From Nitrospirae bacterium JdFR-85 (GTDB lineage: Bacteria; Nitrospirota; Thermodesulfovibrionia; Thermodesulfovibrionales; JdFR-85), in assembly GCA_002011745.1 (NCBI GenBank), contig MTOU01000012.1, forward strand, positions 124,001-188,000: DNA of 64,000 nt, in the 5' to 3' direction. This document shows positions 3,640 to 56,841 of the stretch, in pieces. The notes beneath the pieces were generated by a model. That model was not told the DNA's origin and did no database searches. It saw only the letters and a program-made list of their open reading frames with translations. The translations under genes and the position numbers were made by a program. The stretch's first letter is position 1. Each line of letters starts with the position of its first letter.

Positions 3640-4035
3640 ATGATAAAAAGGGGTTTTATAACCAGTATATTGGTTGTAGTGGTTGTTTTCTCCTCTACTG
3701 TAGTATTTGCAACCAGTGGACGGTTTGATTTTTCTCTTAGAAGAGGGGAGACAAGGAAGACGGTTTCTCCTGAGAGGTATTTAGATCCTGTAGTAAGAAA
3801 GGCATACATGGTGGCACGAGAGATACCTTGGGTTTTGGACAGTATATACTGTTACTGTTTCTGTGAAGAGTCTCCTGCTTTCAGACACAAGAGTCTCCTT
3901 TCCTGTTATACTGATGATCATGCTGCTCAGTGAAGCATCTGTCTCGGGGAGGCCCTTAGGGCTTCCGAGCTTTTCAGAAAGGGATACTCAGTTAAAGAGA
4001 TCAAGAACATAGTAGAAACTGAATTCAAAAGATGA
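3640..4035 (+). CDS. Candidate selenoprotein, PCYCGC-family, exported, with in-frame UGA (Sec98)
   Basis: An ATG at 3640 after AGGAAGGAGG begins a protein with a signal-like hydrophobic segment (about residues 5-24) and then the pattern of the PCYCGC family: CYCFC at 71-75, H83, SLLSC ending at C89, and DDH at 92-94. At 3931-3933 a UGA falls exactly where the family has its next conserved cysteine. Read through, it gives U98-S-I-C101, a UxxC redox-like motif, and the family's normal C-terminus (GYSVKEIKNIVETEF) to a stop at 4033-4035. Readthrough makes the gene end in an ATGA overlap with the thioredoxin gene, as coupled operon genes do. A strong hairpin follows the UGA at 3943-3969. The PCYCGC assignment rests on motif recall and the Sec reading is inference; a nonsense mutation or sequencing error is the alternative. 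Confidence 0.72.
3943..3969 (+). promoter_or_regulatory. Candidate bSECIS hairpin
   Basis: The segment starts 9 bases after the UGA. CTCGG at its 5' end pairs with CCGAG at its 3' end, and GCCC pairs with GGGC near the top, closing a loop of about 3 bases (TTA), with a few mismatched or bulged bases between. The apical loop is about 22 bases from the UGA, inside the 16-37 base range I recall for bacterial SECIS elements. The loop as drawn lacks the guanosine usually wanted in its first two positions, so the exact fold is uncertain. Confidence 0.5.
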
Positions 4036-4529
4036 AATATCGGGGAGTTATTCTCTTTACATTACTTGTTGTAGGTCTGTTTCTTATTCTATTGAGTCAG
4101 AAGGGCAGGGTGCTTCAAGCCCCTAAGGTGGCAGAGGGGCTTGAGGTGCCTTCTTTTAAAGTAGTAGATAAAAATGGAGTGGAGTACACAAAGGAGAATC
4201 TGCGTGGCAAAACGGTTTTCTTACATTTCTGGGCCTCGTGGTGTAAAGAGTGCCGTAATGAGATGCCAGAAATTGTGAAACTCTACGAGAGGAAGAAGTC
4301 TGACCCAGATTTTGTTTTTCTTGGAGTAATATATCGAGAAGACCCCATAAAGGCAAGAAAGTACTTACAGGAGAATGGATATGATCTACCAATATTTGTA
4401 GACCCTGATGAAAACACTGCAAAGGCATTCGGAGTTACAGGAGTTCCTGAAACATACATTATTGGTCCTGATGGTGTGCTGGAGAAGAAGGTGATAGGAC
4501 CTCTACGATGGGGAGATTTTCCCATATAA
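4032..4529 (+). CDS. TlpA/ResA-like thioredoxin-fold protein
   Basis: Membrane-anchored or secreted thiol-disulfide oxidoreductase of 165 residues. An N-terminal hydrophobic helix (about 5-21) precedes an AhpC/TSA-Redoxin fold with active site WC71-K-E-C74 in the context WASWCKECRNEMPE, and the cis-proline loop GVPET further on. It overlaps the upstream UGA-containing gene by four bases (ATGA), so the two are probably translated together. A reductant for the neighbouring CxxC/UxxC protein is a reasonable guess. Family members act in cytochrome c maturation or in reducing periplasmic disulfides; nothing here decides between these roles. Confidence 0.88.
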   Translation: MKYRGVILFTLLVVGLFLILLSQKGRVLQAPKVAEGLEVPSFKVVDKNGVEYTKENLRGKTVFLHFWASWCKECRNEMPEIVKLYERKKSDPDFVFLGVIYREDPIKARKYLQENGYDLPIFVDPDENTAKAFGVTGVPETYIIGPDGVLEKKVIGPLRWGDFPI

Positions 4530-6829: not shown

Positions 6830-7414
6830 CTAAATCCAGACCACCTTTTTGAAGTCCTTGATACCTTCAACTATATGGTTTGTGGTTCCCCTGTAGCCAA
6901 CCTTGAGTTCTGATTCAAGATTGTAGTACTTAAGGCATGTTCCACAGGAGTATATCTCAACTCCCATTCCTTCTATCTCCTTCAGAAGAGCAACGGTTTC
7001 TTCATTAATAGTGGTTAATTTTACCCCTGCATTTAGGAAGAAAATCATCTCTGGTAGTTCCTTTGTGACTTTTAGAGTCTCAAGAAAACCCTTCATGAGG
7101 ATTCTACCTATCTCTTCCTCCTTGCCAAGAGTGTCTGTGCCAATTATAATTAATGTCTCTCTCTTTTTGTCTTTCTCAGTATCCTCTATAGGTGAGCAGA
7201 TATAACCCTTAGTGATTTTTATCCTCCAGTAATTGTCTTCTGGTATAACTTCTGAATCCATACCATTCTTATTGGCAAATCTTTGAAGATTCTTCACTGA
7301 GGCATCATTGTCAACAAGTATCTCTACAGTCCCCTCTTCTATTGTATTTAATACCTCTTCTGCCATTGTTACTGGCTTTGGACATCCAAGTCCTCTCGCA
7401 TCTATACTTATCAT
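6830..7414 (-). CDS. yedF: Selenium metabolism protein YedF (TusA domain plus DsrE-like domain)
   Basis: Residues 1-70 form a TusA-like sulfur-carrier domain with the active-site motif GLGC11PKP. The rest is a DsrE-like domain with a CGxC motif (C157-G-T-C160). This two-domain architecture matches the selenium-associated YedF family (TIGR03527), found in genomes that use selenium, although its biochemical role is not settled. I use the ATG at 7414 (MISIDARG) because GGGAGGC lies six bases ahead of it; an upstream ATG at 7438 has no such site. The family assignment agrees with the two candidate selenoprotein genes in this window. The 200 bases between this start and the terminator at 7612 are AT-rich and show nothing else I recognise. 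Confidence 0.86.
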   Translation of the reverse strand: MISIDARGLGCPKPVTMAEEVLNTIEEGTVEILVDNDASVKNLQRFANKNGMDSEVIPEDNYWRIKITKGYICSPIEDTEKDKKRETLIIIGTDTLGKEEEIGRILMKGFLETLKVTKELPEMIFFLNAGVKLTTINEETVALLKEIEGMGVEIYSCGTCLKYYNLESELKVGYRGTTNHIVEGIKDFKKVVWI

Positions 7415-7611
7415 CTGTTTGCCTCCCAAAAATTTCAATAAAATAATATATATTTTAACTATTGTATATATTTATAAATCAAATAGATATTTCCGATATA
7501 TTGTTAGAAATCTATAGATCAAATATAATCACCAGTATCCAACAAGGGCTAAAATTTTTTTGTATTGCAAGGGGTTATAGGATTTAACCATCGACAATAG
7601 GTTAATACCAT

Positions 7612-44261: not shown

Positions 44262-44615
44262 CTTTATATCCCACATAGTTCAAATAAAACGGAAGAAGAT
44301 TTTGTCTTCCTCCTGAAGAAAGATTGGTTTATATCCCACATAGTTCAAATAAAACACATGCCTCCGCACTCCACTTCTTTAAGCAATTAGAGTTTATATC
44401 CCACATAGTTCAAATAAAACATGGTACTCCCCTCCATCTACTTCTATCGTCTCCACGTTTATATCCCACATAGTTCAAATAAAACATATGGACATTTATT
44501 AGAATATGCTGGTATTGAAACGTTTATATCCCACATAGTTCAAATAAAACAAGGGGGCTTGGTTGAAGGACGACTTTCTCTCCCTCGTTTATATCCCACA
44601 TAGTTCAAATAAAAC
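44262..44615 (-). CRISPR. CRISPR array, 6 repeats of 29 bp, 5 spacers of 36 bp
   Basis: Repeats start at 44262, 44327, 44392, 44457, 44522 and 44587, giving an exact 65-base period. In crRNA orientation (reverse strand) the repeat begins GTTTTATTTGAAC and ends GGGATATAAAC. Five copies are identical; the one at 44262 has a mismatch in its terminal base, as the oldest, leader-distal repeat often does. The AT-rich leader and a -10 box lie at the 44616 end, so transcription runs leftwards. All spacers are 36 bases and differ from one another. It is short for a complete type I system, so acquisition may be recent or the array shrunken. Confidence 0.97.
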
Positions 44616-45097: not shown

Positions 45098-46108
45098 TTA
45101 CCACCATGCTTTAAAGGGCTTATAAAGATCATCTTGAAGAAAGTGTTTTATTAATTTATAACACTCAAGCCGTATAAGCATTCTATACGAAACCTTACGT
45201 CTAAGTTTACGGTGTTTTATAGTGGTGTTCAGTTTTGCATCAAGCTCTTTTAAGAACTTTTTTCTGCCTTCAGGTGTAAGATAACAATAATTTACATCTT
45301 CGTCAAAATCCTCGAGTTTCAATATTCTATTATTTACCAATCTAAATATTACAGGATCTACTATAAGTGGTTTAAATATCTCTGCAATGTCAAGACTCAA
45401 TGAATATCGTCTTTGGCTTGGCTCGTGAAGATAGCTTACTGTTGGATTCAGTTGAGTATGATAAATTTCAGTAAGTATCGTTGAATACATTACAGAATTA
45501 CCGAAAGAAATCAGAGCATTTACAGGATTTGTAGGAGGTTGTTTTTCTCTTTTTTTCATATTAAATCTTCCACCAAATATGAAGTTAAATGCTTGATAGT
45601 AACTTTCTCTTGCTCGTCCTTCACATCCCATAAGTTCACTGATATTATCTATCTCAAATGCCCTGTTCAGTTCATGTTGGATTAACTTCTGAAATTCTTC
45701 GGTTTTTTTGTAATTTCTGAGGTTCCTGAGCATGTGGAAGATTCCGCCCTCCACAAAACTCACAGCAAGATAGAATCTTTTTTCGTTGTCAAGATAATAC
45801 TCAACTTGTCTGACAGTTAATTCTCCAGATACATTTCTGTCTCTTGGCATAAAGCTACCTGTATAAAAGCCATAATAGTTGTATACATGTACTGTAATTC
45901 CTTTCTGTGATAAAAAGTTTAAGAGTTTTGTGTTCAGCTCAATCTCTCCGAATATATGAATGGCAGTGATATCTTCAACAGGAATAGCCCTTCGCTGACC
46001 TTCCTCATTCTCAATATAGACTGTATTGTCTTTTCGTTTTAGTCTTCCGTTTGAGAATATGTAATACATCCGTCCCATATTTGAATTATATCTGAGTACA
46101 TAGGACAT
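45098..46108 (-). CDS. cas1: CRISPR-associated Cas1 (type I-B-like)
   Basis: Metal-dependent integrase of 336 residues. An N-terminal beta domain is followed by the helical catalytic domain: the Glu in GCEGRARESYYQAFN, the His in SYLHEPSQRRYSLSLD, and the acidic residue in DIAEIFKP. These are the conserved Glu, His and Asp that bind Mn. The pattern is the Hmari/Tneap (type I-B) group. It lies with cas2 downstream, and no cas4 fusion is present; cas4 is a separate gene 2 kb away. Confidence 0.96.
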   Translation of the reverse strand: MSYVLRYNSNMGRMYYIFSNGRLKRKDNTVYIENEEGQRRAIPVEDITAIHIFGEIELNTKLLNFLSQKGITVHVYNYYGFYTGSFMPRDRNVSGELTVRQVEYYLDNEKRFYLAVSFVEGGIFHMLRNLRNYKKTEEFQKLIQHELNRAFEIDNISELMGCEGRARESYYQAFNFIFGGRFNMKKREKQPPTNPVNALISFGNSVMYSTILTEIYHTQLNPTVSYLHEPSQRRYSLSLDIAEIFKPLIVDPVIFRLVNNRILKLEDFDEDVNYCYLTPEGRKKFLKELDAKLNTTIKHRKLRRKVSYRMLIRLECYKLIKHFLQDDLYKPFKAWW

Positions 46109-46170
46109 CTAATGGGGTATACAATGTTTTAATCTCAAATTAAGAGCTTTCAAAATTGATAGGAAGAACC

Positions 46171-46851
46171 ATGGAATTCATAGTGCCCGACCATTACATA
46201 TGGTTTGTGAAAGGGCTAAAACCTCTCATCATTGAGATAAACCGAGCTCTTAAGGAGAAACCTCTACCAAAAGGCAGCCCTCATGATATCTTTAGTGAAT
46301 CCTATTTGTTCAGATGGTTAAGAGAATTAGAGAGGATATTTCTTAACATTAAAGAGGCTATAAATAGAACTGGCAAAGTTTTAGCCTCTTCAGAACCGGT
46401 AAAGAGAGATGAAGTAGAAAAGTCTGTACAGGAAATAAGGATTTTGGTGAAGAGGTTCGTTCATCTATTTCATACACTTTGGCAGAAACCCTTTCCAGAA
46501 GGATTTGAAGAAGGACAACATCTGTTTTCGGCACTGTTTGAAAAGCCTTTAAATGATTTAAAAGAGTTTTTTCAGAATGTAGTAAACATCGTAGAAAATC
46601 CTGAAGATGCAGTAAAAAGTAACGGTAGTACTACTTTTGAACTTGTGCTTGTACTCAAAATAGACAAAGAGGCAGAGGCATTCCATCAGTGGTGCCACAA
46701 GATGTCAGATGCTTTTACCATTGTTACTGCTTTTGTAAGAAATTCCTACTCAGATAGAAAGCGATTCTACTTAGATTTAAAAGAGTCCCTTCGTCTGATC
46801 TGTAGAGGGCTTTCCATTATCTTGGCTTTATGTTGTCTCTTTTTTGATTAG
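46171..46851 (+). CDS. Unknown helical protein in the cas cluster
   Basis: A 226-residue protein not recognised, in the opposite orientation to the cas genes on either side. It begins MEFIVPDHYIWFVKGLKPL after AGGAAG, and the ATG at 46171 is preferred to the TTG at 46156. It is rich in aromatic residues and helices, with conserved-looking WHK-type elements (FHQWCHKMSDAFTIVTAF) and a hydrophobic C-terminus (LICRGLSIILALCCLFFD) that could be a short membrane anchor. It may be a cas ancillary gene, a toxin or an unrelated insertion. The region between it and the WYL gene (46852-46981) is AT-rich with nothing else seen. Confidence 0.6.
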   Translation: MEFIVPDHYIWFVKGLKPLIIEINRALKEKPLPKGSPHDIFSESYLFRWLRELERIFLNIKEAINRTGKVLASSEPVKRDEVEKSVQEIRILVKRFVHLFHTLWQKPFPEGFEEGQHLFSALFEKPLNDLKEFFQNVVNIVENPEDAVKSNGSTTFELVLVLKIDKEAEAFHQWCHKMSDAFTIVTAFVRNSYSDRKRFYLDLKESLRLICRGLSIILALCCLFFD

Positions 46852-46981
46852 AAAACAGACTGTGGTAACCTTAAATGGCCAGATTCATTTTGTGTAAGGA
46901 CTGTCTCGTTGATTGTATTTTGACAAAGGTTAATAGCAAGTTTAAGGCAAGTTTAGGATCAGTGAACAATTTATTGCCAAT

Positions 46982-47959
46982 ATGATAAAATTTTCTATGG
47001 GGGCGAGAAATGTCTATGAGCGTATCCTCTGGTTTGACAGACAAGTAAGAAGAGGTAGATATCCTAATGCAACTAAGCTTGCCAGAGAATTTGAGATTTC
47101 AACCAAGACCGCCCAAAGAGACATTGAATTTATGCGTGACAGACTCTTTTTCCCTCTTAAGTATGCTCCAGATCGCAAGGGTTACTACTATACTGACGAA
47201 ACCTTTATATTTCCACTATCTTTTCTTTCTTCATCAGAAATAACAACACTTTTAATTGCAAAGAGACTGTTGGAGGAGATGGCAGAAGGGGCATTTAAAG
47301 AGGAGATAAACAGATTTTTCTCAAAGTTGTTTAATGTAGTGGATAAAACTGTTTCTATTCCAATAGAAGACCTCTTTTCAGTTGAGATACCTGAACATAC
47401 TATTACTCCGGAAAAAATATTTAAACAAGTGGTTTATGCATGTATAAAAAGGCTCAGGCTAAGATTTACTTATTATTCACCTTCAAAGGACGAGATTACT
47501 AATAGAACTGTTGATCCCTATCATCTACTTAATTATTCTGGTACATGGCATCTGATCGCATATTGTCATCTAAGAGATAAGATAAGAGACTTTGTCCTTG
47601 CAAGGATGAAAGAAGTTACCATTTTAAATGAAGAATTTGTGCCTAACCCTTTATTTGATCTAAAGGAATACCTTGGTTCTGCTTTTGGTATTTTTAAAGG
47701 AACAGCAACAGAATGGGTTGTACTGAAGTTTTCTCCAAGAATGGCAAGATGGGTGAAGCATCAACTCTGGCATTCAGAACAACGGATTGAGGAGAATCCA
47801 GATGGTTCAGTAATAATAAGTTTTCCAGTGGCAGACTTGAGAGAAATAAAAATGGAGGTGCTCAAATACGGTGCTGAAGTTGAGGTGATAGAGCCTTTAA
47901 GACTGAAGGAACAGATTTTAAAAGAGGCAAAGGCGATAGTGGACATTTATAAGAAGTAA
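46982..47959 (+). CDS. WYL-domain transcriptional regulator
   Basis: A 325-residue regulator: N-terminal HTH (about 20-75, with ARNVYERILWFDRQV and STKTAQRDIEFMRDRL) and a C-terminal WYL domain (about 150-230) with LRFTYYSPSKDE, DPYHLLNYSGTWHLIAYC and DFVLARM. WYL proteins sense nucleotides or nucleic-acid signals and repress cas genes in several bacteria. It is transcribed away from cas1-cas2 and is convergent with cas4, so it could control the whole locus. Both 46982 and a downstream ATG (MGARNVYE) are possible starts. Confidence 0.9.
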   Translation: MIKFSMGARNVYERILWFDRQVRRGRYPNATKLAREFEISTKTAQRDIEFMRDRLFFPLKYAPDRKGYYYTDETFIFPLSFLSSSEITTLLIAKRLLEEMAEGAFKEEINRFFSKLFNVVDKTVSIPIEDLFSVEIPEHTITPEKIFKQVVYACIKRLRLRFTYYSPSKDEITNRTVDPYHLLNYSGTWHLIAYCHLRDKIRDFVLARMKEVTILNEEFVPNPLFDLKEYLGSAFGIFKGTATEWVVLKFSPRMARWVKHQLWHSEQRIEENPDGSVIISFPVADLREIKMEVLKYGAEVEVIEPLRLKEQILKEAKAIVDIYKK

Positions 47960-47968
47960 TCTCTTTCT

Positions 47969-48547
47969 TCAGACCCAGCAAAATTCATAATAAGAACACT
48001 TCTTACAGTAGGGTTTCCTCTTTGCCTGTGGTGGATTCTTCAAGGATATTATCTCCTGAACCCTTCTGAGGTCTTCTTCTACGCCCCGTTCAGCCTCCTC
48101 TGTAAGCACCACTTCCTCGCGCCGCCTCATTTTTGGATAGTTAATAATGCCTTTCTTCTCTACTCCGAGTCTTTTCAGATAGTAAAGATAATAGAGAATC
48201 TGAGCCCTATCAGCTTCTTGAAGTTTATTGGAATACTTTATTTCTCTGATAGTATCCTTGTCCATGATATCTATCCTTATCAGATTATCAATAAGAACAT
48301 CTCTTGTCTGCTGTCGTAGATAGGAGTATTCACCGAGTAACTTTCCAAGAAGCACTTTATCAGATGTCTGCTCCATACCGATTCCCCTATCAAAAAGCCA
48401 AAGTTTCCGTTCACAAATGTGGAGATAGTTTATTCTGACTCCAGTAGTCTTGAGAGATTGAAAGTCTAATGATTCTTTAACAGCCTCTTCTAAGTGTTCA
48501 GATGCCTTTTTTAGTTTTTCAAGTGAATACCTTAATTCCTCTTTCAT
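47969..48547 (-). CDS. cas4: CRISPR-associated Cas4
   Basis: Iron-sulfur nuclease that trims prespacers. 192 residues with YLHICERKLWLF (first Cys and the helix that follows), DIMDKDTIREIKYSNK with the nuclease Asp and Lys motifs, and C-terminal CKKCSYYEFC, which gives the other cluster Cys residues. It is separated from cas1 by the WYL gene and the unknown gene. It is convergent with the WYL gene (10 bases apart). Confidence 0.9.
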   Translation of the reverse strand: MKEELRYSLEKLKKASEHLEEAVKESLDFQSLKTTGVRINYLHICERKLWLFDRGIGMEQTSDKVLLGKLLGEYSYLRQQTRDVLIDNLIRIDIMDKDTIREIKYSNKLQEADRAQILYYLYYLKRLGVEKKGIINYPKMRRREEVVLTEEAERGVEEDLRRVQEIISLKNPPQAKRKPYCKKCSYYEFCWV

Positions 48548-48620
48548 ACAGAACTTTCTCTATCTTTAGGACTATTTCTATGAATCTGCTATCAACCTCG
48601 TCAAGATTTATGATTTCCAT
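48519..48620 (-). CDS. Possible small protein between cas3 and cas4
   Basis: A 33-residue open frame (MEIINLDEVDSRFIEIVLKI) whose ATG at 48620 follows GAAGG by eight bases. It overlaps the first 29 bases of cas4 in another frame. The same frame is open upstream for about 30 further codons to a stop near 48708, without an obvious start. It looks protein-like, but no homologue comes to mind. It may only help translate cas4 by coupling. The other bases in 48621-48737 show no other gene. Confidence 0.3.
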   Translation of the reverse strand: MEIINLDEVDSRFIEIVLKIEKVLYERGIKVFT

Positions 48621-48737
48621 GGTAGATACCTTCAGTTTATCATATTTCAAAATGCAACGAGTTCTTGTAGAGGTATATTTTTTCTTTTCAGAAAGCCTTT
48701 TGGTAAGTAGTCAGTAAGTCTCTACTTCTTATCGTTC

Positions 48738-51317
48738 TCATTTAAGATACCCTTTCTCATTGTCATAATTACCTGTACCCACATATATATCAGATAACCA
48801 GTTCCTTAATCTTTTATAATTCTCACTTGATAGATCTGGAATCTCTACCAGCCAATGATAAACGGGAATTAGAAAATCTTCAATATAGGAGTGAAGTACA
48901 TATTTATTTAATACATTTTTTTTAAATTGTGTATAGTTAATTTTAGTATGTGTGTTTACAAATTTTTTTATATCTTTTTTAAATTTCTCTTTCTGATTCC
49001 CTGCAATAATCGGAATTGTGTATATCTCTCTAAAAAGCCTCTGGGCATCTTTCTTTCTATTTGAAACATATCCTGCATCAAGTATGTTAAGTGTGGTGTA
49101 GAACTCGTCCATATAATAAGAACAATTTGCTATCATATCCAAGATTTCATAGCATTCTCTTACAAGTATTTCTTTGTCTTTTTCTGATATTAAAAAAGAT
49201 TTATAAGTTCTCTTTCCTTTGCCTTCTTTTATTTTAAGATTTCTTAATATAGTATTAAACTGTTTGTCCATCTGTTCTCGTTTCTTTCTGAGGCTATTTT
49301 TAGAATTACTGATTTCTTGCAGTTTTCGCTTAATCTTTTCAACTTCATCACTCTTCAATGCTTTGACCATCTTTGCAATCAGCATTAATGAAATAAACAA
49401 AAGATCTTTGGAATAAACTCTACCTTCTCCTGACTCTATTTCCAGAGAATTTCTTTTTGTAAAGCAGATATAAACATTTGGGTCATCGTTATATCTAAAC
49501 TCTTTAACTTTAACATAACTTACTCTTCTAAGCACTCTTCCCATTCTTTGAACAAGATAATCTAAGGGTGCTATCTCAGTGAAAAGAAGATCAGCATCAA
49601 TATCAAGAGACGCTTCTACAACTTGAGTAGCTACAAGTATTTTCCCGTTCTTCTCATTATCAGGCTTTGGATTTTTGAATTTATCATCTATTATTTCCTT
49701 TTCTCTTATCTGTCTCTCCGATAAAGAGAATTGAGAATGTAATATTTTAAGATAGAATTTATCGTTACATAACGACCTTAATTTATCGTAAATATTCTGT
49801 GCCTTCTTGACAGTGTTAAGAATTACAAGAACTCTTTTGCCTTTTTGGGCATGACCAGTAATCTCATTTATAACTTCATCTGATTCAATATCTATATCTC
49901 TCAAAACTATTCTATGTTTTTTAAAATTTTCAAGTCCTTCATATTTATTTATCAATTGAAAGGTACCACACCGATTTTCTATATTTCTTTTAACGAATTC
50001 TGGCAGGGTAGCGGTCATTAAAAGAAATCTTCCGCCCATCTTTGTAACTTCTTCAATCATCTTTATAATAATTGCACATGCTTTCGGGTCATAAGCCTGA
50101 ACCTCATCAATTACCAAACGAGAAGTTCCAGCTGGCAGGAAAATCTTTTCATATCCAGGATATTGAAGTGCTGATGGAAAAATCTGGTCCCCTGTTGAAA
50201 CAAGAAAGGGATAGGATAAATGGCGTGCAAGTTCTAAAACTCTCATCAACTCGGTTTCTTCACCTGTCCAGGATAGTCTGTCTATTTCTCTTTTTTCAAT
50301 CTTTTCATAAATGTAAATATCGGCATCTGAATGAAGAAGCCCAGTTTTATTAAAAGAAAATATATCTCTTGCTCTCTCATAAAGAGAGTTAACCGCCGTT
50401 CGTAACGGTAAGGTAAAAATAGTCTTTTCACCAGCAGACCATAGGAAAGCAAATTCTGTCTTGCCACTTCCTGTTGGTGCAACTAATATTAGAGATTTAT
50501 TCCATAGGTCATTTTTCCGAATTTCTTCTAACTGCCAGCATTTTCCTCCTTTGCTTTTAATGTTTTTATCAATTAACTGTATTACTTTGTCTTTAATTTC
50601 TGGTTCGATTTCTATCTTTAAGTCCAACATTTCCTCTTTTTGGATGAAAGAAACAAAATGATCTAACCTTAAAAGTGAACCAAGTAATATCCTAAGTTTT
50701 TTGAAGGTGTCATCTGATATTTCTATTTTACTTGGTAGAGAAGTTATAAGATATGGCAAAAATAAAATCTCTGAAAATTTCTTCCCTTCGACTATTTCTT
50801 CTGCAAGTTCTTTATTAAATCCAATTAATGAATGGTAGTCTAAAAAACTTTCATCATTGAATTCATTTTTAAGATTCTGCAGCAAACTATCTCTTAGTTC
50901 GTGATCTTCTAATAATATCTGTAATGCCTTTTTCAGCTCTCTACTGGAGAAGTTAACCAACTCTTCAAAATTCTCACGCCAATGATGAAAGGCAACTGCA
51001 GTAAATAACAACTTTTGTTCGTCTTCATTATAAATTCTTCTTTGAAGTTCTTTTTGATTTATCCAGAATATAGAAAAGATAGAATGAGGTATATCAGGGA
51101 AAGGAATATTGGGGTTATATTGCCAGTTTCTTACACTTATCTGAAAGGATGGGGATACTTTACCAAGGTCATGGCAAAAAGCAACTATTTTTAATAGATT
51201 GTAAAAAAGATTATCTTCAAGATAAGTTGTCTTGGCTCTTAATACTTCTAATTGTTCTAAAAGTCCTTTTGTATGTTGAGAAAGCGTAATTCTTTTTTCA
51301 CTTTTTGCAAGTATCAT
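48738..51317 (-). CDS. cas3: CRISPR-associated Cas3 (HD nuclease-helicase)
   Basis: The effector nuclease-helicase of type I systems, 859 residues. An N-terminal HD nuclease (FCHDLGKVSPSF near residue 50) is fused to a superfamily 2 helicase: Walker A APTGSGKTE near residue 280, Walker B DEVQ instead of DExH (VIDEVQAYDP), SAT-like motif LMTATLPEF, VATQVVEASLDIDADL, and QRMGRVLRR. The C-terminal accessory domain follows. Cascade recruits it to unwind and degrade target DNA. It overlaps cas5 by 20 bases. Confidence 0.95.
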   Translation of the reverse strand: MILAKSEKRITLSQHTKGLLEQLEVLRAKTTYLEDNLFYNLLKIVAFCHDLGKVSPSFQISVRNWQYNPNIPFPDIPHSIFSIFWINQKELQRRIYNEDEQKLLFTAVAFHHWRENFEELVNFSSRELKKALQILLEDHELRDSLLQNLKNEFNDESFLDYHSLIGFNKELAEEIVEGKKFSEILFLPYLITSLPSKIEISDDTFKKLRILLGSLLRLDHFVSFIQKEEMLDLKIEIEPEIKDKVIQLIDKNIKSKGGKCWQLEEIRKNDLWNKSLILVAPTGSGKTEFAFLWSAGEKTIFTLPLRTAVNSLYERARDIFSFNKTGLLHSDADIYIYEKIEKREIDRLSWTGEETELMRVLELARHLSYPFLVSTGDQIFPSALQYPGYEKIFLPAGTSRLVIDEVQAYDPKACAIIIKMIEEVTKMGGRFLLMTATLPEFVKRNIENRCGTFQLINKYEGLENFKKHRIVLRDIDIESDEVINEITGHAQKGKRVLVILNTVKKAQNIYDKLRSLCNDKFYLKILHSQFSLSERQIREKEIIDDKFKNPKPDNEKNGKILVATQVVEASLDIDADLLFTEIAPLDYLVQRMGRVLRRVSYVKVKEFRYNDDPNVYICFTKRNSLEIESGEGRVYSKDLLFISLMLIAKMVKALKSDEVEKIKRKLQEISNSKNSLRKKREQMDKQFNTILRNLKIKEGKGKRTYKSFLISEKDKEILVRECYEILDMIANCSYYMDEFYTTLNILDAGYVSNRKKDAQRLFREIYTIPIIAGNQKEKFKKDIKKFVNTHTKINYTQFKKNVLNKYVLHSYIEDFLIPVYHWLVEIPDLSSENYKRLRNWLSDIYVGTGNYDNEKGYLK

Positions 51318-52131
51318 TACCCTTAGTTCTCCCGATTAATTTTGAACATATTATAGGCACATTTTTGTCAACATAGCATTCCACACTTTTGGAAAGATTT
51401 CCCTTCTCAAAAAGTTTTACTATTGCAAATTCATCAAAGCTCCGCTTATTATCTACTATAGAGTATATGGTTGGTAATCTCACCATATTACCTTGAAGAT
51501 TTTTAAAAAATGTCATATAGTTATCAAATACAATAAGGTCCTTCTCAACATACGCAGGGGATGGTATCCAGCAGTAATATGGGATTTTGAAAACCTTGCT
51601 TTTTTGTAGTTCTTCTATAAGATTGATTTCTTGAAAAATTAACCAGTCTTCAGCTCTACCCAAATGTATAACGGAATTACATTTTATTGGGTTTTTAAAA
51701 GCATTTTCTATTTCTTTGAGAAAAGAATAATCTTTGTGATAAATATAAATGTATATATTCACATTATGAAGTACATCCACTGTTAAAGGCATCTGACCTC
51801 CTGGATGCTGTACTACACTATCCAAAATCCGATTATAAGGGGTATGGAATTTTGACTTGTGACTATCTCTTTCAAGATTTCTAAACCAGATATATTCTTT
51901 TACTATAGTCTCAAAGTCCCCATATATTCCGATAGAAAGCCCTTCCACTAATTCTTTCAGTTGTCTGTCCTCTTCCCATTTTGTAATACCTGTTCTTATC
52001 CCCATCATATTGCAGATTAATCCTTTAACAGTAGACAACGGAGGAATTGGATAAGTGAATCTTCTCTGGTAACTAAAAGGTATTCTATAATGAGCACTGG
52101 GTTGATATATATGAATTTTTAGAACCTTCAT
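51298..52131 (-). CDS. cas5: CRISPR-associated Cas5 (type I-B)
   Basis: RAMP subunit that caps the 5' handle of crRNA in Cascade. 277 residues starting MKVLKIHIYQPSAHYRIPFS and PIPPLSTVKGLICNMMG, the typical Cas5 opening (RRM strand, then PP/S-x-S turn). The rest contains GDFETIVKEYIWFRN and, after a variable part, a C-terminal strand pair. It is 3 bases downstream of cas7. Confidence 0.9.
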   Translation of the reverse strand: MKVLKIHIYQPSAHYRIPFSYQRRFTYPIPPLSTVKGLICNMMGIRTGITKWEEDRQLKELVEGLSIGIYGDFETIVKEYIWFRNLERDSHKSKFHTPYNRILDSVVQHPGGQMPLTVDVLHNVNIYIYIYHKDYSFLKEIENAFKNPIKCNSVIHLGRAEDWLIFQEINLIEELQKSKVFKIPYYCWIPSPAYVEKDLIVFDNYMTFFKNLQGNMVRLPTIYSIVDNKRSFDEFAIVKLFEKGNLSKSVECYVDKNVPIICSKLIGRTKGNDTCKK

Positions 52132-52134
52132 TTG

Positions 52135-53577
52135 TTACTCACTGAATCCAAGGGCCTCTAAAAATTCTTTCCAATCAGTGTAGTATTTATCCTTAGGTGG
52201 TTTCCCCTCAAACTTATTTTTTATATCTTGAATGTATATCAGTTTTTTATCATTTCCATCTCCAAGTATATAACAATTATTTAGGGCTTCGGGATAAATT
52301 CTGCCAAGTTCCACAAAGGGATGGAACACGGGCACTGGTATCTCAAGTCCTGCTGCAATTATAAATTCAGGAATAATTCCATAATTTTCACCACTGGAGT
52401 GATATATAATTCCATTTTTTAAGATTTCAAAAATCTGTTGTAATCTTTTTACTTTAATTTTATCATTTACTCTAAAAATAGTTTTTTTGCCTGAATCTTC
52501 TGTTTTAATCGTTATCTCACATTCACCTATGTTAGTACACTTTACTTTATACTTCTCTTCTTCTTCATTAACTTTATCAGCCTTAATAGAATGAGTTAAT
52601 ACCAATGATAAAGTTAAGTGCTTTTTATCAGAATCATAAGAGTATTTCCCAATTGTAAATCTATAAATATTTTCTTCTTCATCCAGCTCAAATTCTTCCT
52701 CATAAATCTTGAAGGAAGGCTTGCTGCTCTTTTCTTTTTTACCTGTTTTTTCTTCTTCCTCTTTCTTTTCTTTTTTTACGATGTATTTCTTTTTAAAAGT
52801 TATATACCTTTTCTCTTCCCGATTCTTGGATTTTTCGGACTTTTCTTCCATCAAATCCATACTTACAATACACGACAAGCCTTCAATTTTTATCTCGTGT
52901 TCACCAATTTTATAAACCGGTTCATCCTCAGCTTTTTCAACATCTTTCAGAATAATGTCAGAACCTTTTTCAGATAAAAATAATGACAATGTTTTTGTAG
53001 TGTTATCATAATTATAATCCTTTATCCACCATTCATCTTGTCCAAGTTTATCAACATCTATGGTAAATGTAACTTTGAAATAAGATTCTTGTTCTTCCTT
53101 ATTAACAGGATTAGGATTAGCTCTGCATCTACTTGCAATATCATGATTTGCATTAAATTGCATATCTCCTTCCCAAGGTTCAAGCGCAACTGCTTTGGTT
53201 ATACCAACAGGTGCTTTTCGTGTTATACTGGTTTGCCCACCAATTGTAAACATATAGCCAAAAGCATCAAGTTCAGCATGGGTAATGATATTGGCCCTTC
53301 TTAAGTCAAATTGAACCACTTTATTGTTTCCTGCACCTGACTCAAAAGTAGGAGCAGGTTCCCAGTCGTGAGGATATCTTTTGTTGAGAGTATGAAAAAG
53401 ATAATGTCTCATTGCCTCTCTTGAAAGATAACTTACCGTCACGGTTCCATATCGTGTTAGTTTTTTTATTGAAGGAATATTGCCACCTATCTTTTCATCA
53501 CGATTCAGGGCAGACGCTTCAAATATCATTGTAAAAGTTATACCTTTTAAATCCTTTCTTAACCCTACCTTGCCCAT
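52135..53577 (-). CDS. cas7: CRISPR-associated Cas7 (Cst2/DevR type) with large charged insertion
   Basis: Backbone RAMP of Cascade. The first 180 residues follow Cst2/DevR-type Cas7: GITFTMIFEASALNRDEK, ..LSREAMRHYLFHTL, and AFGYMFTIGGQTSITRKAPVG. The chain is 480 residues, whereas the group usually has about 300. The extra material lies at about 180-390, with a very Lys/Glu-rich block at 243-290 (for example KKEKKEEEEKTGKKEK). The C-terminal part (FVELGRIYPEALNN-like) returns to the family. The insertion could project from the Cascade backbone; its function is unknown. Confidence 0.88.
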   Translation of the reverse strand: MGKVGLRKDLKGITFTMIFEASALNRDEKIGGNIPSIKKLTRYGTVTVSYLSREAMRHYLFHTLNKRYPHDWEPAPTFESGAGNNKVVQFDLRRANIITHAELDAFGYMFTIGGQTSITRKAPVGITKAVALEPWEGDMQFNANHDIASRCRANPNPVNKEEQESYFKVTFTIDVDKLGQDEWWIKDYNYDNTTKTLSLFLSEKGSDIILKDVEKAEDEPVYKIGEHEIKIEGLSCIVSMDLMEEKSEKSKNREEKRYITFKKKYIVKKEKKEEEEKTGKKEKSSKPSFKIYEEEFELDEEENIYRFTIGKYSYDSDKKHLTLSLVLTHSIKADKVNEEEEKYKVKCTNIGECEITIKTEDSGKKTIFRVNDKIKVKRLQQIFEILKNGIIYHSSGENYGIIPEFIIAAGLEIPVPVFHPFVELGRIYPEALNNCYILGDGNDKKLIYIQDIKNKFEGKPPKDKYYTDWKEFLEALGFSE

Positions 53578-53578
53578 C

Positions 53579-54115
53579 TTATTCCTCCTTTATGTTTGTT
53601 ATCCCTGCCAGAAAGGCATATATAAATGCTTTGAATTGCTCAATATTGTACTCGTTTTTCAAGGCATCAATAATTTCCGAAGGAACAGGTTTTCTCTGAG
53701 CAACATAAGTTCTAACTATCGTCTGAACAACCATATCTTTTTTCCCAAGTCTTGTTAATTCAAGTATTCTTAATGCTTGTCCCTTAAAAGCATTTTTTAA
53801 TCCACTGTCGTATGTAGTTTCGTAGCCTCGCTGCTTCAATCTTTCTAACAAAAAGTCTGGCTCCTTTGATTTAATCTGTGAGATAAGAAAGTTAATCTTA
53901 CGAATATTTTCTTTAGTATCACTAGAGGTTATTCTTTCCTGTTCTAATTCCTTTTTTACACACTCAATCTTTTTTAAAAATTCTCTTATTTCTTCACCTC
54001 TAATAAATATCCCTATCACTTTTTTTACATCTTCATACCATTCATCAAGATTTGTAGGGGAAATGCTCTCATAAAGACGTCTCAATAAATCCTCAATCTC
54101 CTTATAAATACTCAT
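53579..54115 (-). CDS. Small Cascade subunit-like protein (Cas11-like)
   Basis: A 178-residue helical protein with no motif of its own. Its last 70 residues (RILELTRLGKKDMVVQTIVR, then QRKPVPSEIIDALKNEYN and FKAFIYAFLAGI) resemble the C-terminal end of Cst1/Cas8b proteins. It overlaps the cas8 gene by four bases (ATGA), with its own AGAGAGG ribosome site. In other type I-B systems Cas11 is made by internal translation of cas8b; here it seems to be a separate gene. Assignment is from position and C-terminal pattern. Confidence 0.6.
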   Translation of the reverse strand: MSIYKEIEDLLRRLYESISPTNLDEWYEDVKKVIGIFIRGEEIREFLKKIECVKKELEQERITSSDTKENIRKINFLISQIKSKEPDFLLERLKQRGYETTYDSGLKNAFKGQALRILELTRLGKKDMVVQTIVRTYVAQRKPVPSEIIDALKNEYNIEQFKAFIYAFLAGITNIKEE

Positions 54116-55173
54116 AATTCACCTCTCTTGTTAAGAGTTTCAATTCTTGTATAAAGTTCAGGTAATATTAGAGATAGGTTATTTAAAGATCTTCTGTCCT
54201 TATTAACCAAGGCTGATAAATACTTATCATCAAAAGAATTTGATCCACCGATGGAGTATTTGAGTATTTTCTGGGAAATCACAAGCAGTTGCTTGTAATC
54301 TCTTTTAAGTACAATGTCTAATATCATTGGTTCACCTGTTCTGGATATAAGTGATGAAATTTTTGGATTGAGCAGTATTCTTGTAACATCTATTGGTAAT
54401 GAATAAGAATCTATCTTACCGCTTCTGATGATAACCATCTCTATGTTCATCATTGTCCATGTGCCAAATGTAGCATAGATTCTTTGAGAAAACTCTATTA
54501 GGCTTAAACCAAGAATTCTTCTAACTGAGTATTCTTTCCATTTGTCAAGAACCTCTGAGGCAAACTTATTAAGAAACCAAATCATTTTGAAGGAAGGTGC
54601 ATTAATGAAAATCTTGCCATCATTAGTAGGAATTAAGGAGATATGATGATGAATAATAAGATATATACACAGTGGACATAGGTAGAAATCATTATTGCAA
54701 CTCCAGAACGAGTTAGGCATATCTCCCAAAGATGGGGCTAACAATTGAGAATGCATCATGTTAAATATTTGTCTTGTTGACAAAAATTCTTCTATCTCTT
54801 TATCAATTTTGTTAAAAGCTAATTTAGAACCACATAAACGACAAGAGTTATCATTGTTGTTATTAAATATTAAGTTCCTATATAAAAGCTCTACAAATTT
54901 CCTTAAAGAATTTTCATCTTTCTGCTTTCGAGAAGGGTTAATAAAATTTTTATATATTGAGTTTCCTATTATAGGAGGCTTATCATTGTGATACTTGTAA
55001 AACCATTTTAGTGCTTGCGAATTTTTGAATATTTTCATATCAACTTTGACCGTTCCATCATCTTCAAGCCATTCTTCAATCTTGAATCTTCCTATATCTG
55101 AACAGACCCTCAACAGCCCCACTACCCCCGCATTATAAAGCCAATTTGATGGATAGAGTCTAATGGTTTCCAT
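54112..55173 (-). CDS. cas8b: CRISPR-associated Cas8 (Cst1-type), short
   Basis: Large subunit of Cascade, responsible for PAM recognition, 353 residues. It opens ETIRLYPSNWLYNAGVVGLLR, typical of Cst1. A zinc ribbon is formed by CRLCGSK near residue 118 and CPLC near 170. The rest is helical, ending in KRGEL. Cst1/Cas8b proteins are often 450-600 residues; together with the next gene (178) the length is about 530, so this looks like a Cas8 split into two polypeptides. Confidence 0.8.
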   Translation of the reverse strand: METIRLYPSNWLYNAGVVGLLRVCSDIGRFKIEEWLEDDGTVKVDMKIFKNSQALKWFYKYHNDKPPIIGNSIYKNFINPSRKQKDENSLRKFVELLYRNLIFNNNNDNSCRLCGSKLAFNKIDKEIEEFLSTRQIFNMMHSQLLAPSLGDMPNSFWSCNNDFYLCPLCIYLIIHHHISLIPTNDGKIFINAPSFKMIWFLNKFASEVLDKWKEYSVRRILGLSLIEFSQRIYATFGTWTMMNIEMVIIRSGKIDSYSLPIDVTRILLNPKISSLISRTGEPMILDIVLKRDYKQLLVISQKILKYSIGGSNSFDDKYLSALVNKDRRSLNNLSLILPELYTRIETLNKRGEL

Positions 55174-55282
55174 TCCCTCTCTCCCGAAATTTTTCTAATT
55201 TATTCTAAGCTGTTATGTGCCTCAATAGGTGTCATAGGTTTTAAAGTCCTTATGAATTGTTTGAGTAGTTTTAATTGCTACA

Positions 55283-55390
55283 GCCGTTCAAACAGTTTGA
55301 GCCGTTTGAATCGTTTGAGCTGTTCAAACAGTTTGAGCCGTTTGAATCGTTTGAGCCGTTTAAACCGTTTGAATCGTTTGAGCCGTTTTA
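55283..55390. repeat. 9-bp tandem repeat block, left side of the four-helix-bundle gene
   Basis: About twelve 9-base units of the type CCGTTTGAA / TCGTTTGAG, in nearly perfect 9-base register. Two units are reversed (CTGTTCAAA). The block reaches the stop codon of the four-helix-bundle gene at 55388. With the right block (55872-56000) it brackets that gene. The 80-odd bases from here to cas8 (55174-55282) show nothing else. Confidence 0.92.
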
Positions 55391-55852
55391 GTTATCTGTT
55401 TTATTCTTATCTTTCTCAAATTTCCTTAAAAACTCCTCTACCTCCTCTCTCATGGTCTTATACCGTACTTTATATTTTTTACCTTTGTATCCACTTCCTT
55501 TAAGGTATTCCATAAAGTTGTTTATCATTACAGAAAGTCTCTTGAATTCGTTAATCAGTGCCTCTGCCTCTTTCTTGTGTATATATCCCTGGTCCAGAGC
55601 GACATACAGTTGAGAACGGACCTCTCCACTTGAACCCTTTGCGATTGAGAGAAACTGTAAGAATTCCTGATTGCCTCCCCTTTCAAAGCCCTCTGCAATG
55701 TTAGACATTACCGATACGGATGCCCTTCTTATCTGGTCACAAAGGCCAGGGTCTTTTGAGAATCTTCTGTCTGAAGTAAGGTCATAAATCCTTTTCGTTA
55801 GCCTTCGTGCCACCTTCCAGATCTCAAGGTCTTCAAAGTATTTGATGCTCAT
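55388..55852 (-). CDS. Four-helix-bundle (S23/TIGR02436-type) protein
   Basis: A 154-residue, all-helical protein: [19 protein letters not shown] opens helix 1, then [20 protein letters not shown] with the conserved NIAEG, and [19 protein letters not shown]. This is the family of proteins encoded in 23S rRNA intervening sequences and similar cassettes. Its relatives include the avd proteins of diversity-generating retroelements. The biochemical function is unknown. It lies inside the cas operon between cas6 and cas8 and is flanked by 9-bp tandem repeats, so it looks inserted. Start at 55852, after GGAGCC. Confidence 0.9.
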
Positions 55853-55871
55853 GGAGGCTCCTTTATGTTAA

Positions 55872-56000
55872 AGTTTGAACCGTTTGAGCTGTTTGAATCG
55901 TTTGAACCGTTTGAACCGTTTGAGCCGTTTGAGCTGTTTGAACCGTTTGAACCGTTTGAGCCGTTTAAACCGTTTGAATCGTTTGAGCCGTTCTAACCGT
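55872..56000. repeat. 9-bp tandem repeat block, right side of the four-helix-bundle gene
   Basis: About fourteen units of the same 9-base motif (GTTTGAACC, GTTTGAGCC, GTTTGAATC), extending over the cas6 stop codon at 55993-55995. The last codons of cas6 (ING) are therefore made partly of repeat. Units match those at 55283-55390, in direct orientation. Confidence 0.92.
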
Positions 56001-56841
56001 TTATTATATCTATCATCCCAAACCCCTGGCCTGTTCTGAGTCCTATGCCTGTCTGATACAGGAGTTGCAGGTCTTCTGGGTCACCACGGAGGCAGAAGGT
56101 GCCCTTGTAGGTGGTAAGCACCATATAGGGTCTTCCAGTATGCCGCCAGAACTCCTTAAGGGCATGTTTGACCCCCACCTTCTCAACACTCAAAGGTATG
56201 AACTCCAATGGCCTTCTTAATCCATAACCCCTTATGTCTCTGAGTATCCTGTGCTGTATCTCGTTCAGATGGTGGTTGAACCTCTCAAGCTTCTGGGAGT
56301 CTATGGTCCTGCCGTCCTCTTTAAATATCTCTATTGGTCTGTCATGCTCATCCTCTACAGAGATATAGGAAAGGGTCTTAAACAGAACCTCATCCCTGTT
56401 TATCTTTCTCTCATTCAGCATAGAGATCTTTCCAATCTGAACTTTTTCAGTATCTTCATTAGTTGAAAGAAACTTGAAAAAGTCTAATTCCTTTATCTGG
56501 CAGAGTCCGTTGTAGAGATTTATCATAAACTCATAATCAGAAGATGAGATAAAAAGACAAAAGTATCTACCACTGGCTGGATAAAACACCGTATCCTCAA
56601 CCATCAGGTCTTCATTTAAGAAGAGATAGAACTTCTCTCTGTTTTTTATATATTCAGAAGGGATGTAGAGGCTGAATGAGAAGGGTTTGGTCTTTTTGGA
56701 GTATATTGAGGATTTATCTGGAAAAAGAAGGTCTTTGTAATTGCCGTCTGCCCGGTTGAGTGCCTCCTTTATGAGTGCCATAAGGCGGTGTCTGTAGATA
56801 ATGGGTAATCTGCGGAGGTTAAGATCTACTTTTATTCTCAT
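55993..56841 (-). CDS. cas6: CRISPR-associated Cas6 endoribonuclease
   Basis: Cuts pre-crRNA at the repeats. A 282-residue double-RRM protein that ends GIGLRTGQGFGMIDI, the glycine-rich Cas6 loop. The start, MRIKVDLNL and IYRHRLMALIKEAL, is the usual first strand and helix, with the His of the helix a candidate for catalysis. Its last codons coincide with the repeat block. The promoter at 56891-56919 would drive cas6 and the downstream cas genes. Confidence 0.9.
   Translation of the reverse strand: MRIKVDLNLRRLPIIYRHRLMALIKEALNRADGNYKDLLFPDKSSIYSKKTKPFSFSLYIPSEYIKNREKFYLFLNEDLMVEDTVFYPASGRYFCLFISSSDYEFMINLYNGLCQIKELDFFKFLSTNEDTEKVQIGKISMLNERKINRDEVLFKTLSYISVEDEHDRPIEIFKEDGRTIDSQKLERFNHHLNEIQHRILRDIRGYGLRRPLEFIPLSVEKVGVKHALKEFWRHTGRPYMVLTTYKGTFCLRGDPEDLQLLYQTGIGLRTGQGFGMIDIING

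Follow-up and report, generated by a model that had tools for sequence, protein, structure and literature searches.

Within the window analysed here (a stretch of 64,000 nucleotides), the gene under study extends from 3640 to 4035 on the plus strand. Its ATG start codon at 3640 is preceded by an AGGAGG ribosome-binding site, and its frame contains a TGA at 3931-3933, corresponding to residue 98, after which it stays open for 33 codons up to the TGA at 4033-4035. Under the standard code this gives a 97-amino-acid ORF, whereas read-through yields a product of 131 amino acids carrying the motif U98-S-I-C101. On inspection, the N-terminal sequence (MIKRGFITSILVVVVVFSSTVVFA) looks like a signal peptide. 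With the Pfam model PF13798 (PCYCGC family; cut-off 25), 45.4 bits are obtained for the read-through product and only 21.1 for the 97-amino-acid one. Column 98 as well as C71, C73, C75, H83, C89, H94 and C101 are invariant in an alignment of 47 sequences in which U was written as C.

The stop codon overlaps the ATG at 4032 of the following gene as ATGA (4032-4035). This gene (4032-4529, plus strand) encodes a membrane-anchored, TlpA/ResA-like thioredoxin of 165 amino acids with a WCKEC active site, matching AhpC-TSA with 76.9 bits and Redoxin with 70.8 bits. It shares the membrane anchor, the thioredoxin fold and the CxxC motif with TlpA/ResA-type thioredoxins, but lies under the curated cut-offs of the ResA (87.4 versus 170 bits) and DsbE models. 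A preliminary description of this locus had reported an in-frame UGA inside an otherwise intact PCYCGC-like protein, the same seven Cys and His positions and the ATGA overlap with a TlpA-like gene; sequence and PF13798 score agree with it on all of these points. Elsewhere in the window (44262-44615 and 45098-56841), CRISPR repeats (Rfam CRISPR-DR43) adjoin minus-strand ORFs that read as cas genes.

Decoding of the in-frame UGA

Of 396 genomes of the phylum that were searched, 82 gave matches; 80 related loci were compared together with their flanks. The column of residue 98 holds TGA in 61 of the 80 loci, TGC or TGT in 18, and NGA (with an ambiguous base) in one, so that UGA recurs at this exact position far beyond chance; the preliminary description had named Cys at position 98 of homologues and UGA in related genomes as signs that would support its reading. 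Likewise, only TGA, TGC/TGT and the one NGA occur in 50 named loci from GTDB genomes, a set which overlaps with the 80 and whose hosts are Nitrospirota (mostly Thermodesulfovibrionia), Desulfobacterales, Syntrophus and Myxococcota-type "Deltaproteobacteria". The coding region past the UGA (3934-4032, plus strand) is under purifying selection: for its 33 codons the median pN/pS was 0.21, with values below 1 in all 820 pairs of Sec forms.

Downstream of the UGA, a SECIS-type hairpin is located at 3948-3966 on the plus strand, consisting of an 8-bp stem (GGAGGCCC/GGGCUUCC) closed by a UUA loop. When the Sec forms are aligned gap-free from the UGA, this conserved stem spans positions +17 to +35. 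In 75 distinct Sec sequences 91% of the stem cells are paired, versus 45% in 25 Cys sequences, and sliding the partner strand by one base lowers the pairing of the Sec forms to about 63%. Stem pairs vary compatibly, for example with A-U for G-C at pair 20/32 in 12 sequences. Against synonymous-codon shuffles that preserve both the encoded protein and local codon usage, the Sec forms (n=75) had a mean z of -2.87 and the Cys forms (n=25) one of -0.40, with -3.2 for this gene and -2.4 for the homologue of the Olavius Delta 1 symbiont. Sec forms have the hairpin and Cys forms lack it, which ties it to selenocysteine and not to the protein sequence. Plain dinucleotide shuffles, in which coding is ignored, gave an unexceptional z of -0.64 for the hairpin of this gene, and an Rfam search found no known RNA at the locus. 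Bacterial SECIS elements usually have a G among the first two loop bases, a secondary feature that is not decisive; most relatives have UGC or UGA loops, while the UUA loop of this gene lacks a G near its start. A strong hairpin had been described before as starting 9 bases after the UGA. Its presence downstream of the UGA holds, but the conserved stem begins 14 bases past it, and the outer CTC/GAG pairs, which start at 9 bases, fall outside the conserved fold.

The same genome encodes SelA (621 bits), SelB (395 bits), a tRNA-Sec with anticodon UCA, SelD (325 bits; with an in-frame TGA of its own) and a formate dehydrogenase FdhA with a TGA, so that the search for selA, selB, selC and selD proposed in the preliminary description has found all four components. 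Among the relatives, selA is present in 59 of the 61 genomes with a TGA form versus 7 of the 17 with Cys forms only (Fisher p 8e-7), a contrast to which phylogeny contributes. The two TGA-form genomes without a selA match (G350 and G041) are both incomplete assemblies. A YedF-like ORF with TusA- and DsrE-like parts is located in the window at 6830-7438 on the minus strand, which fits selenium use.

Because the column is exclusive to UGA and Cys, the hairpin is confined to Sec forms, the codons past the UGA are under purifying selection and the Sec machinery is complete, the gene is assigned to the selenoproteins, as the preliminary description had proposed. Judged from sequence comparison, it is very probable that the UGA at 3931-3933 is read as selenocysteine. 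One could instead take this codon as an ordinary stop or a sequencing error, leaving a truncated pseudogene or a protein of 97 amino acids; the standard code does give such an ORF, and truncated copies occur in a few relatives. Neither a stop nor an error, however, would turn up again and again in a single column whose only other codons are for Cys, and here 61 related loci share the UGA, with a constrained frame and a conserved hairpin behind it. We therefore reject this possibility, which appears extremely improbable. Just as improbable, and likewise rejected, is a reading by a general suppressor or by codon reassignment (e.g. UGA as Trp) that would do without Sec machinery: nothing specific speaks for it, no relative has Trp at this position, where Cys (TGC/TGT) is found instead, and there is a full set of Sec machinery together with a dedicated hairpin.

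Some relatives deviate from the common form. In loci L069, L078 and L085 the Sec gene is truncated or decayed but still situated ahead of efflux genes, which suggests recent loss. Locus L074 (genome G172) carries a Cys form nested in a Sec subfamily, and the genome still has selA; it is likely a Sec-to-Cys reversion, although its branch is very long. In L106 (G272) two in-frame TGA codons give UNLU (UxxU), with selenocysteine predicted at both redox positions.

Family membership and gene neighbourhoods

Residues 38-129 match the NCBIfam model NF041379 ("OS_HP4_CYCXC, CYCXC family (seleno)protein") with 115.2 bits (cut-off 90). A 2026 review (PMC13188914) lists "CYCXC family protein (hypothetical protein OS_HP4), PF13798, UxxC", credited to Zhang & Gladyshev 2007; according to this credit, the Olavius algarvensis Delta 1 symbiont was the first source of OS_HP4. 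OS_HP4 is also listed with UxxC in a 2022 review (PMC9312934). The suggestion in the preliminary description that this could be a new selenoprotein family thus has to be given up: the gene is a well-supported new member of the known CYCXC/OS_HP4 family. Our literature search for "PCYCGC" together with "selenoprotein" found no paper because the names used in the literature are OS_HP4 and CYCXC.

The gene has the domain, the UxxC motif and the Cys/His positions in common with the CYCXC/OS_HP4 family, but represents another subfamily and another host, a Thermodesulfovibrio-related member of the Nitrospirota. The Olavius Delta 1 homologue is 45% identical over 102 residues and likewise carries TGA at this position, but the overlap with a TlpA gene is not seen there. 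With regard to PF13798, the read-through product is well above the cut-off (see above), but its motif is YCYCFC and not PCYCGC; Bacillus-type PCYCGC members are lipoproteins with Cys (PMC13068155).

Neighbourhoods were classified in the 80 loci, 38 of which belong to the subfamily of this gene. The exact 4-base overlap with a TlpA gene was found in seven of the 80. Five of these are Sec forms (L047, which is this gene, L056, L079, L082 and L094; 5/38 of the subfamily) and two are Cys forms (L108 and L113), with a DsbD_TM/CcdA-type transmembrane protein encoded next in L108. In the protein tree, which has few columns and many unresolved forks, the five Sec forms are placed outside the main Cus cluster, and several gains or losses would be needed. 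The coupling to a thioredoxin gene pointed out in the preliminary description hence recurs in several lineages. That the TlpA-like product of the next gene could serve as the reductant, as also suggested there, is a plausible inference and kept at this strength because only a minority of the relatives have a TlpA neighbour.

Most close relatives are found in a Cus-type copper/silver efflux setting. An outer-membrane efflux gene is nearby in 22 of the 38 subfamily loci, and same-strand neighbours are of the CusB type in 18/38 and of the CusA type (RND) in 17/38. A YtkA gene is near in 15/38, and genes for a copper-type P-ATPase or a YHS-domain protein accompany several loci. Beside the locus of this gene itself there are no copper genes. 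Other Cys forms occur in operons with a BlaI-type repressor, a BlaR1-type peptidase, a TPR protein, a thioredoxin-like protein, ResB, ResC and TlpA. A second Sec subfamily (GAGUxxCQ), the usual one within the taxonomic family of this organism, is not tied to any one context, but often has a histidine kinase/response regulator pair nearby. A literature search for copper efflux and selenoproteins brought up nothing on the CYCXC family among the titles and abstracts listed, and the gene context (TlpA overlap here, Cus-type operons in close relatives) may be unreported.

In 16 loci, a small exported Cys-rich protein with the motif PYGxxCPLCGxYGYC and no Pfam match is encoded near the CYCXC gene, usually directly upstream or within less than 1 kb (e.g. 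L068:9194-9517, minus strand, and L103:7575-7895, plus strand).

Structure and proposed function

AlphaFold2 predicts with confidence a domain made up mostly of helices (mean pLDDT 85; mostly above 90 from residue 31 on), in which U98 lies directly ahead of the helix 99-113. A search by sequence found no solved structure for this protein, and none of the Foldseek matches to folds in the PDB was significant. Rank 2 went to the N-domain of E. coli CcmH (PDB 2kw0), with E 3.0 (not significant) and TM 0.53 by target. The profile of the whole family aligns to CcmH with a probability of 84% (hhalign; P 8e-6) in a 34-column stretch at CxxC and GxSxxEI, whereas the best of 46 control families reached 25% and reversed profiles stayed below 1%. 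CcmH (PF03918) has in common with the CYCXC family the CxxC followed by a helix, GxSxxEI and a further helix, as well as export, and the Cys forms occur in a cytochrome c gene context; the CYCXC family differs by its extra CxCxC and His cluster and by the lack of an hmmscan match to the CcmH family. We therefore treat the relation to CcmH as a lead and not as membership. The genome of this organism has no CcmH match. Several Nitrospirota (L220-L225, L227 and L231) encode a CcmH-like protein in which CPCECP...C...SC replaces the usual CxxC.

We propose that the product is a small selenoprotein of the CYCXC/OS_HP4 family that is exported to the periplasm. SelB and tRNA-Sec would decode the UGA at 3931-3933 by means of the hairpin at 3948-3966, a step that is well supported, on sequence grounds only. 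Sec98 and Cys101 would make up a UxxC redox pair where a helix begins, beside the invariant cluster of four Cys and two His (C71, C73, C75, H83, C89 and H94). The thiols of the protein are probably kept reduced by the TlpA/ResA-like thioredoxin, whose gene is translationally coupled, and the protein itself probably handles thiols and/or a soft metal, e.g. Cu(I), in the periplasm, as we infer from the gene neighbourhoods. We give such a redox or soft-metal role, with reduction by TlpA, about an even chance.

If the protein mainly bound or delivered Cu(I)/Ag(I) in the periplasm, selenocysteine would be a metal ligand and the protein not a thiol oxidoreductase. A metal could be bound by the CxCxC, the two His, the further Cys, U and the last Cys, and at most subfamily loci the gene is part of a Cus-type efflux or CopA operon that also encodes Met-rich YtkA and YHS-domain proteins. 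On the other hand, this gene and the basal lineages are paired with TlpA and have no metal genes, Cys forms are found beside cytochrome c biogenesis genes, and selenocysteine is usually a redox residue; we regard a mainly metal-binding function as possible, yet on the unlikely side. Those Cys-form operons, with ResB, ResC, TlpA, a DsbH/Trx7-type protein and a CcmI-like TPR gene, would fit a CcmH-like thiol reductase in cytochrome c maturation, for which the profile alignment, above its controls, and the Foldseek rank of the E. coli CcmH N-domain also speak. The Foldseek match is not significant, however, Pfam CcmH was not reported for this protein at E <= 1, and a test for a CcmH-like bridging family gave no bridge (2.8%). 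Moreover, the resemblance is short and centred on the CxxC, and Res or Ccm genes are absent beside the locus of this gene, so that we hold a function in cytochrome c maturation to be unlikely.

Returning to the redox or soft-metal role with TlpA as reductant, one may tentatively go further, to a scenario that we consider rather doubtful: this lineage would have one half of a translationally coupled selenoprotein-thioredoxin pair, whereas sister lineages would have been recruited to copper/silver efflux operons, selenocysteine serving periplasmic soft-metal handling on a CcmH-related scaffold.

Under standard annotation the gene would end at residue 97. With its read-through product, a poorly understood selenoprotein family gains a clean, computationally well-supported member, and the CYCXC family gains testable leads: a fixed TlpA partner, the connection to Cus efflux operons and perhaps a remote relationship to CcmH.
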